The notes beneath the pieces are model-generated. The model saw nothing but the letters and a program-made list of their open reading frames with translations. It searched no databases and was not told the DNA's origin. This document shows, piece after piece, positions 16,750 to 21,167 of a stretch of 28,563 bases of DNA. The DNA is from a virus. Position numbers and translations under genes: made by a program. Every line of letters starts with the position of its first letter. The stretch's first letter is position 1. The stretch lies in the IMG/VR virus record IMGVR_UViG_3300042922_000659, positions 1 to 28,563 of that record; one strand, written 5' to 3'.

Positions 16750-17535
16750 ATGGAAGACACTATAAAAGCAGTTTTAGGCTCTTTTTCTCCAACAGGACTT
16801 CGCATTATTGAGGTAACTTTTATAATAGCTTTTATGGCTATCTGTGCACTCTTAATAACGTCGGCTTATAAATATACTAAGTCGGTTGCAAAGGAAACAA
16901 AAATTTTTGACTTATCCAAACAGAATCACGAATTGCATAATGATTTATCTAAAGCAGAAGCAATAAATAATAATATACTGAATTCTTTAAACACATTGAC
17001 AAATTTTTTGTATAGTTCTCAATCAGTTATATTTGATTCTATAGAAAATGAAAATGTAATTGAAATAGGGGAACAATTTAAGATAATAAATAATTTAATT
17101 TCAAATGATATTGTAGGAAGCAATCAAAAACGAGTGAGCTTATGGGCTTTACGTATAGAAAAAGATAAGAAACCTGTTCTCCAATCATTCTATAGAAGTG
17201 CAAATTATACCAGTTATAAAACTGATACAAAATATTTGCCTATTGATGATTCTATTGCAGGCAGAGCTTTCAGAAAAGAAAAAGAAGAATTTGTTTATGA
17301 TTTAGAAAATGACCCTGATTGGCATGGCTTTTCTGGGAAACAAACGTACAGTGCTATATTGGCAATACCAATTAAAAATTTTGGTGTTTTAACTGTTGAT
17401 TTTTCTAACAAACCATCCGAACATGAGATTAAGGTGATTGAAGTTTATTGCTATAACATGGCATTATTAAATGCAACTGCCTATCAATCTTATAAATATT
17501 GTGATAGAATTAATAATAATGAGGAGGAAGATTAA
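16750..17535 (+). CDS. Membrane-anchored GAF-domain protein
   Basis: A 261-residue protein. ATG 16750 has AGGAGA 12 bases upstream. A single membrane helix (about residues 18-40) is followed by a charged helical stretch likely to be coiled coil (about 45-85) and a GAF-like domain (about 90-245) with the pattern IDDSIAGRAFRKEKEEFVYD, then QTYSAILAIPI and FGVLTVDFS near its end. GAF domains bind small molecules or serve as dimer sensors. There is no kinase, cyclase or nuclease output domain, so output must come through a partner. The next ORF begins one base after its stop. The divergent neighbour is the Spo0E-like gene. Function unknown; a sensor or surface-exclusion/defence role is possible. 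Confidence 0.75.
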   Translation: MEDTIKAVLGSFSPTGLRIIEVTFIIAFMAICALLITSAYKYTKSVAKETKIFDLSKQNHELHNDLSKAEAINNNILNSLNTLTNFLYSSQSVIFDSIENENVIEIGEQFKIINNLISNDIVGSNQKRVSLWALRIEKDKKPVLQSFYRSANYTSYKTDTKYLPIDDSIAGRAFRKEKEEFVYDLENDPDWHGFSGKQTYSAILAIPIKNFGVLTVDFSNKPSEHEIKVIEVYCYNMALLNATAYQSYKYCDRINNNEEED

Positions 17536-17536
17536 C

Positions 17537-17722
17537 ATGGAAAAGGTATATAAAAATACCGAGCTCAATCTTGCAGATGTGTACAAAAGTTTCGACAAGC
17601 TAAACAGTAAATCTTCTAAAAACAAATGGACTAAAAGCATTACAATTATTGACAAGAATATTGACAAGGACAGTAAATTACAAAAATACAGAAATAGAGC
17701 TTTTAAGCTTGTGGCACGTTAA
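17537..17722 (+). CDS. Small basic protein coupled to the GAF gene
   Basis: A 61-residue protein starting at ATG 17537 with GAGGAGG inside the end of the GAF gene; the stop of that gene is at 17533-17535, so the two are almost certainly co-translated. The sequence is hydrophilic with many Lys and Asn (LNSKSSKNKWTKSITIIDKN) and no membrane helix. No family recognised. A longer reading of this frame from 17471 lies within the GAF gene and lacks a ribosome site. It may be the cytoplasmic partner or a regulator of the GAF protein. Confidence 0.6.
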   Translation: MEKVYKNTELNLADVYKSFDKLNSKSSKNKWTKSITIIDKNIDKDSKLQKYRNRAFKLVAR

Positions 17723-17786
17723 ATTGATTATGCAAAGGAGACAGAACATTTCGATTTAAAAGTGCGTATAGGATCCAAGGTTAACT

Positions 17787-17834
17787 TTAATATAAAGAGA
17801 GTTCTAATTAAGTTTAGAACTCTCTTTATATTAA
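17787..17834. terminator. 20-bp perfect stem, bidirectional terminator
   Basis: A 20-base arm at 17787-17806 (centre AAAGAGAGTTCTA) is exactly complementary to 17815-17834, with an 8-base loop. It lies between the plus-strand GAF pair and the minus-strand ribbon-helix-helix genes, and the stop codon of the latter (17831-17833) lies within its right arm. Confidence 0.8.
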
Positions 17835-17989
17835 TATTCCTTATCTCTCAATTCCATCTCTCTTATCCACTTACCTAATAATATATTTACTAAATTAGAT
17901 AGACTTTGTTTGTCTTCATCTTTTATTAACTCTACTTGTACTTTCTTTTTTAATTCTGGTTCTATATATAATGTAGTTTTTTCATTCAT
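17831..17989 (-). CDS. Small ribbon-helix-helix protein 1
   Basis: A 52-residue protein starting at the ATG at 17989, with AGAGGTG upstream. It opens with a strand, EKTTLYIEPELKKKVQVELI, and continues with two helices, DKQSLSNLVNILLGKWIREM, the Arc/CopG fold. Such proteins bind DNA as dimers and often act as small phage, plasmid or antitoxin repressors. Its stop lies in the terminator. The companion gene lies 21 bases upstream in the same operon. Confidence 0.75.
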   Translation of the reverse strand: MNEKTTLYIEPELKKKVQVELIKDEDKQSLSNLVNILLGKWIREMELRDKEY

Positions 17990-18690: not shown

Positions 18691-18713
18691 CTTGGTCGCG
18701 GCCAGCGACCAGG
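18691..18713. repeat. GC-rich hairpin
   Basis: CTTGGTCGC and GCGACCAGG with loop GGCCA: 9 pairs, one G-U, with far higher GC than anything around it. Function not known. Confidence 0.6.
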
Positions 18714-18755: not shown

Positions 18756-18803
18756 TTGGATATATTTATTAAATTATGGTAATATAAATAAGAACATATG
18801 TTC
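18756..18803 (+). promoter_or_regulatory. Promoter with LexA (SOS) box
   Basis: TTGGAT at 18756-18761, 18-base spacer and TAATAT at 18780-18785 form a promoter-like pair. GAACATATGTTC at 18792-18803 is a perfect match to the Gram-positive LexA box GAAC-N4-GTTC and covers the expected start site. LexA would repress this promoter until DNA damage. Confidence 0.65.
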
Positions 18804-18901: not shown

Positions 18902-19027
18902 ATGACAAAAGATCAGAATGAAAAATTTAAAAAAAAGAACATAAAATTTAGTGTAGAAAATTTGTTGACAAAGGAAAAAAATTATTTGATAAAGTTAAAA
19001 AGGCTTAAACGTATTAGAAGTGTTTAA
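18902..19027 (+). CDS. Small basic peptide under the SOS-box promoter
   Basis: A 41-residue ORF with a strong AGGGGG site before ATG 18902. It is very lysine-rich: MTKDQNEKFKKKNIKFSVEN, then a helical end with LIKLKRLKRIRSV. Its last codons lie in a hairpin terminator. It is the only gene between the SOS box and the candidate attP next to the integrase gene. Small basic proteins in this place can be excision factors or antirepressors, but there is no recognisable family. Gene status is likely given ribosome site, promoter and terminator. Confidence 0.5.
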   Translation: MTKDQNEKFKKKNIKFSVENLLTKEKNYLIKLKRLKRIRSV

Positions 19028-19030
19028 GCC
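19002..19030 (+). terminator. Hairpin at end of small SOS-linked gene
   Basis: GGCTTAAAC (19002-19010) / GTTTAAGCC (19022-19030), a perfect 9-bp stem with an 11-base loop. The stop codon lies in the right arm. There is no T run, so efficiency is uncertain. Confidence 0.5.
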
Positions 19031-19038
19031 ATACATAA

Positions 19039-19090
19039 ATGATATTGTTTATTTTGGTCAGGAGGTGCTATACACAATAAACAGTATCAT
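19039..19090. other. Candidate phage attachment site attP
   Basis: A 52-bp imperfect inverted repeat. Arms ATGATATTGTTTATT (19039-19053) and AATAAACAGTATCAT (19076-19090) match at 14 of 15 positions, with partial symmetry further in and out. The symmetry centre lies between 19064 and 19065, giving a GG central dinucleotide, which is non-palindromic as large serine integrases require. It overlaps the last bases of the integrase gene, the usual site for attP of this enzyme class. An alternative is a long-loop hairpin at the convergent gene ends. Confidence 0.6.
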
Positions 19091-20633: not shown

Positions 20634-21014
20634 CTACTTATTATTTTTTTCAATTAAATGAATAACATCAGCTCTCATTGCAGCATCTAATACTTCATGG
20701 ACAGTTGGTTTGTCATAATCCTTTTCGCTTTTTAGCAAACCTATCTGCATTAACTGGTTAACTGCATCTTTCAAGCATTTAAATTCTTTTCTTTTACTTA
20801 TATATTCATCATCTTCGATTCCATACAGCCAATATTCTTCTGGCTTGCCGGATAATAGAAATAATTTTTCCAAAACATCCTTAGACGGCTCTCTAGTACC
20901 ATTTTCCAACATTGTATATAAAGTTCTCGCTATTCCTAATTTTTCTGACATAGCTACTTTTGTTTTAATATTTAAGCTTAATCTATAATTTTTTAATCTA
21001 TCTTTGAATTCCAA
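20634..21014 (-). CDS. CI-like lysogeny repressor (XRE family)
   Basis: About 126 residues. The start is ambiguous: ATG at 21020 or 21023 lie within 3 bases of the AAAGG site, while TTG at 21014 has 9-base spacing and is preferred. Residues 1-65 are a helix-turn-helix: FKDRLKNYRLSLNIKTKVAM, then SEKLGIARTLYTMLENGTRE. The C-terminal half is helical. There is no S24 peptidase domain, so RecA-stimulated self-cleavage is not expected. Divergent from the Cro-like gene, with operators between. Integrase follows in the same direction. Confidence 0.8.
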   Translation of the reverse strand: MEFKDRLKNYRLSLNIKTKVAMSEKLGIARTLYTMLENGTREPSKDVLEKLFLLSGKPEEYWLYGIEDDEYISKRKEFKCLKDAVNQLMQIGLLKSEKDYDKPTVHEVLDAAMRADVIHLIEKNNK

Positions 21015-21035
21015 TATCATCATCCTTTCAATTAT

Positions 21036-21064
21036 ATTATAGTCACAAAAACATGACATTGCAA
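21036..21064 (-). promoter_or_regulatory. Repressor promoter with operator-like spacer
   Basis: On the minus strand TTGCAA (21064-21059), 17-base spacer, perfect TATAAT (21041-21036). The spacer holds GTCACAAAAACATGAC (21042-21057), a degenerate version of the TTCACA/TGTGAA operators. The expected start near 21029 leaves a very short leader. Confidence 0.65.
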
Positions 21065-21080
21065 CATGAAAATGTAGCAT

Positions 21081-21102
21081 ATATTCACAAATTTGTGAAT
21101 AT
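21081..21102. promoter_or_regulatory. Operator O1, 22-bp perfect palindrome
   Basis: ATATTCACAAA and TTTGTGAATAT are exact complements about one centre. It lies between the divergent repressor and Cro-like genes, the standard site for a phage switch operator. Confidence 0.75.
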
Positions 21103-21167
21103 GAAAGAAATATCAAGCAATATCAAGTATATGCTATATATTTTAAGATATTGCTAAATTATTAAAA

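Follow-up and report, generated by a model that had tools for sequence, protein, structure and literature searches.

The 52-bp element at positions 19039–19090 of the window (the whole 28,563-nucleotide stretch of viral DNA analyzed here) is very probably the attP site of the adjacent gene for a 511-aa serine integrase, lying in the unintegrated arrangement, and the bacterial partner site, attB, of the window phage, a virus of Clostridium type, is most likely a Trp-Ser-Gly-Gly-Pro-Pro codon block (TGGTCNGGNGGNCC) in a gene of the yaaH/sleL type. The repeat and the integrase gene are present in the window, the same junctions exist in related lysogens, and arms like those of the window lie at scars in the same gene (Table 1).

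The element (ATGATATTGTTTATTTTGGTCAGGAGGTGCTATACACAATAAACAGTATCAT) is an imperfect inverted repeat, in which the outer 15-bp arms match at 14 of 15 positions, 19 of the 26 pairs match overall, and the pair at the dyad axis is GG (19064–19065). The length, arms and central pair had been listed in the original prediction and were confirmed by a recount; its further statement that the repeat overlaps the 3' end of int is also correct, as the TGA stop codon (19087–19089) lies within the outer arm. A scan of the window (arms of 15 bp, 14 or more matches, spacers of 18–30 bp) recovered only two repeats, namely this element and a terminator-like hairpin at 17786–17835. When the whole window was shuffled 60 times with dinucleotides preserved, no comparable repeat arose; of 1000 shuffles of the local 1 kb, 0.6% gave one. 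An attP of this class is an imperfect inverted repeat of about 50 bp centered on a non-palindromic dinucleotide, and the element, with its 52 bp, its central GG and its significance against shuffled sequence, has this form. Its inner arms are asymmetric (TGGTCAGGA versus TATAGCA), whereas the attPs of relatives are symmetric there; the window site is less palindromic than theirs because its inner right arm (CTATACAC) departs from their symmetric CTGACC. The second repeat, at 17786–17835, lies between convergent genes; with arms matching at 15/15, it is a strong inverted repeat and probably a bidirectional terminator.

Table 1. Attachment site, neighboring features and related scars (window positions unless a genome is named)
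Feature	Position	Strand	Sequence	Basis
attP	19039–19090	n/a		outer arms agree at 14/15, all pairs at 19/26; homologous attPs, intact or rebuilt, in relatives
Left outer arm of attP (P)	19039–19053		ATGATATTGTTTATT	near-identical arms at yaaH scars in G168 and G190
Right outer arm of attP (P')	19076–19090		AATAAACAGTATCAT	holds the int stop codon; nested TGA also in closest relatives
Core	19055–19066	+	TGGTCAGGAGGT	homologous to what attL and attR have in common in related lysogens; identical in some intact yaaH-like genes
Predicted crossover dinucleotide	19064–19065	+	GG	dyad axis of all attPs compared; inside every shared core
Large serine integrase (int), 511 aa	19087–20622	-		Pfam Resolvase, Recombinase and Zn_ribbon_recom above cut-off; groups with yaaH-inserted integrases
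HTH (Cro/CI-type) regulator, probable repressor	20634–21116	-		adjoins int; Pfam HTH_19 and HTH_3
Putative intrinsic int terminator	18997–19030	-		9-bp stem, then TTTTT; fold -11.1 kcal/mol; far side of attP from int
Intact yaaH-like gene plus 3' fragment	G168:C1:3380232-3383234; G190:C52:6650-12335; G002:C1:516003-524190			

The catalytic domain of the integrase is recognized by Pfam Resolvase (4.4e-36), with a YSRKS motif in the translation, and the C-terminal recombinase and zinc-ribbon domains (PF07508 and PF13408) both score above the cut-off. Tail/baseplate and lysis genes lie to the left of attP, and the HTH regulator, Gp157 and replication genes lie to the right, so the site adjoins int and has phage DNA on both sides. 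This gene order, from lysis genes through attP, int and repressor to early genes, is that of an unintegrated temperate phage. The putative int terminator was missed by a terminator scan with a loop limit of 8.

Several other features were recognized near the site. A gene for a GAF-domain protein and a small ORF downstream of it (16750–17722) sit in the interval from the lysis genes to attP, where lysogenic-conversion genes are usually found. A perfect LexA-type box (GAACATATGTTC) at 18792–18803, of which the window has no other (chance expectation, 0.16), stands upstream of a 41-aa ORF (18902–19027) whose end is 11 bp before attP; this ORF, for which no relatives were found among the related loci examined, is possibly an SOS-controlled small gene or an excision factor. 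A GC-rich perfect hairpin (TGGTCGC-GGCCA-GCGACCA, 18693–18711) stands 330 bp away from attP in a very AT-rich stretch and has a TGGTC...GACCA motif in common with attP; it has no exact copy in viral contigs and no match in Rfam.

Close relatives of the integrase are few and are found in C. ljungdahlii ERI-2 (67% identity), the Clostridiaceae genome G140 (67%), the virus records G003 and G004 (66–67%; the latter, from IMG/VR, ends at the int stop and offers no att information) and C. akagii (57%), and an order-level search for closer integrases led only to G140, C. ljungdahlii and C. akagii. The integrases of G140, C. ljungdahlii and G003 form a group with that of the window at 99/98 support, and the first two of these are the closest with flanking host DNA. 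Among annotated phages, no DNA similarity to the window was found, and no integrase that covers most of the query exceeds 37% identity; the closest, that of Terrisporobacter phage TPELB_ph1 (37% over 86%), is too distant for shared attachment sites to be deduced. A pattern derived from attP gave 20 matches in viral contigs, none of them recognizable as an attP of this type.

In G140, a 17,786-bp element interrupts a GH18 gene, and a single contig holds both junctions. Two LysM repeats and the start of the GH18 domain are encoded by an 882-bp ORF that ends just after ...MTYEWGWSGG and is followed by int in the opposite orientation, and the remainder of the GH18 gene is found 17.8 kb away on the same contig. 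The attL and attR of this element have GGTCAGGAGG in common; rejoining the phage halves yields a palindromic attP centered on GG, and rejoining the host halves yields an uninterrupted WSGGPPMAVAP reading frame. In C. ljungdahlii, a truncated gene with the same ending (...MTYEWGWSGG) lies beside int and 3' halves lie on two other contigs, the junctions having TGGTCAGGTGGT in common. Both shared blocks align with window positions 19055–19066, 19064–19065 included, so that the attL/attR core contains the center of the site in two Clostridiaceae prophages or prophage remnants with 67% identical integrases. The comparison of lysogen junctions that the original prediction had proposed as a check, carried out here on the relatives, thus supports its reading of the repeat as attP; the target gene had not been named in that prediction. 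Its placing of the crossover at 19064–19065 agrees with the position of this pair inside the shared cores and at the dyad axis, from which two properties we infer the exact base pair.

The virus record G003 has a 98-bp terminal repeat, and is therefore a circular form; it carries a complete attP (24 of 26 pairs) centered on GG and positioned with respect to the int stop as it is in the window. When five attPs (those of the window, G140, G003 and two C. ljungdahlii combinations) were aligned by the dyad axis, all had GG at the center and the TGA stop of int within an outer arm. In the serine-integrase model, the outer (ZD) motif of attB is shifted 5 bp inward (PMC3783163); by eye, one attB arm of G140 has an ATGA 5 bp further in than that of attP, and nothing clear is seen in the other arm. 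Two near-identical 3' halves, each after a phage arm, exist in C. ljungdahlii (G001 C11 and C40; L023 and L024) against one 5' half found, which suggests either two insertion events or a collapsed assembly.

By homology, the gene split in the related lysogens is a YaaH/SleL-like LysM and GH18 spore cortex-lytic/germination gene, the intact C. akagii homologue matching the spore germination protein YaaH and a cortical-lytic enzyme in PDB (E = 1.6e-104 and 2e-102, respectively). Across the family, 91 of 208 genomes contain a homologue (E <= 1e-30); the gene is unbroken in most of these and split near residue 240–248 in C. ljungdahlii and G140. The attB of both lysogens is the W-S-G-G-P-P codon block, WSGG is encoded at the site by all 30 intact alleles that were extracted, and the intact yaaH-like loci L071 and L077 carry exactly the window core. 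The predicted crossover GG supplies positions 1 and 2 of a glycine codon; because these cannot vary synonymously, the site may be stable as a target. Interruption of the spore gene is seen in the relatives and we infer it for the window phage, whose own attB is deduced from theirs because no lysogen of it was found (its own attL pattern had no matches in the 208 genomes).

An intact copy of the gene together with an extra 3' fragment, which starts at the core 1.4–6.6 kb downstream, was found in G168, G190 and C. akagii. The DNA to the left of the core in G168 and G190 shares 14 of the 16 outer positions of the window P arm, compared with 10–11 of 16 for the 66–67% relatives, and a pattern combining the P arm with the host half matched only these two among the 208 genomes (reversed control, 0). 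The G168 fragment was first found by the target gene alone; that of G190 was found by the pattern, and its arm match is partly selected because the pattern contained part of the arm. We read both scars as attR remnants of window-like phages, which would tie the window's own arm type to the yaaH/sleL-type gene. The C. akagii fragment is less clear as a scar. Combinations of an intact gene and a 3' fragment perhaps result from elements carrying a replacement 3' end, or from tandem duplication after prophage decay.

Of the other explanations, the strongest accepts the site as an attP and supposes that the window phage targets a different gene, for example one for a flavoprotein, its core having diverged. 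Integrases at 44–57% identity sit, where the target is readable, in flavoprotein-type (flavin/NAD-binding) genes with similar cores such as TGGTCAGGTGTTGC, which points to target switching in the wider integrase family, and the lack of a window-phage lysogen among the 208 genomes fits this explanation as well. However, the window integrase groups with the yaaH-inserted enzymes, its core is identical to intact yaaH-like alleles, the scars with its type of arm sit in the yaaH-like gene, and the flavoprotein site of L052 has GT, not GG, as the aligned central pair; we therefore regard a different target as unlikely. The more distant integrases (L048, L052, L054, L056 and L012) lie at glycine-rich dinucleotide-binding motifs (GGGWSG, GGRPGG and similar) in genes of the flavoprotein type, and judging from these sequences, the clade looks as if it re-targets among TGG-TCA-GG-like codon blocks.

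That the repeat is a transcription terminator or an operator of int, a role suggested by its position at the 3' end of the gene, where terminators lie, is very improbable: the arms are 22 bp apart, AT-rich and without a T-run, a separate stem with a T-run lies just beyond, and the same element forms the exact joint between phage and host DNA in the relatives. Many contigs of this kind in the virus collection are trimmed prophages, and the site could accordingly be the attL or attR of an integrated prophage or a degraded insertion, but the site has two outer arms of the P type that match each other, both flanks carry phage genes, and no fragment of the target gene was found beside the site in the window; there is hardly any likelihood left for this explanation.

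Taken as an attP, the element would be used in the manner of other serine integrases, for which the A118/LI structure and models describe a dimer at each site, synapsis of attP and attB by a tetramer, cuts flanking the central dinucleotide, rotation and rejoining (PMC3783163); the biochemistry of the window integrase is assumed by analogy with these enzymes. A dimer would bind the two arms of the element and bring it into synapsis with attB in the host chromosome, and staggered cuts around the central GG, followed by rotation and religation, would place the phage at the second of the two glycine codons in WSGG, splitting the target gene. The putative terminator of int lies beyond attP, so that integration would also take it away from the int transcript and would leave int convergent with the split gene.

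The enzyme and its site belong to a known kind. As in A118/LI, phiC31, Bxb1 and TP901-1, the integrase has the Resolvase, Recombinase and zinc-ribbon architecture, and attP is an imperfect inverted repeat of about 50 bp with a central dinucleotide that adjoins int and has a short shared core. The target gene is different from those of all four, and in the comparison with TP901-1 only the catalytic domain is clearly alike (E = 5e-16). The clade of large serine integrases to which the enzyme belongs is uncharacterized, and the present results predict, for this clade, both complete attachment sites (attP and attB) and the point of crossover. Large serine integrases serve as genome-engineering tools.

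Sporulation genes are interrupted by skin (sigK), SPbeta (spsM), vfbin (spoVFB), vrin (spoVR), gin (gerE) and yin (yabG) (PMC10747680, PMC4191935, PMC5595907). The phage family described here resembles these in that a gene of the Firmicutes spore program is split by a phage or prophage-like element that carries a site-specific recombinase, and differs in that the target is of the yaaH/sleL type and the window phage is in the unintegrated form. Neither yaaH nor sleL is among the interrupted genes named in those three papers, and searches of open-access text gave no report of their interruption, although supplementary tables of integrase targets may include the gene.

A conserved spore cortex-lytic gene is a recurrent phage target in Clostridium, being split in two genomes and represented by attR-like scars with window-type arms in two more and by a third, less clear fragment. 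By analogy with SPbeta and spsM, the phage family might act as a developmental switch, in which lysogens would carry a silenced yaaH/sleL-type gene and excision of the prophage in the sporulating mother cell would rebuild it; we offer this as a rather doubtful proposal. Since several spore-gene targets are rebuilt by timed prophage excision, the same question can be tested in the yaaH/sleL-type gene, including that of C. ljungdahlii, an industrial acetogen. If the proposal is true, the class would gain a new target gene, and the state of the prophage would be tied to spore germination.
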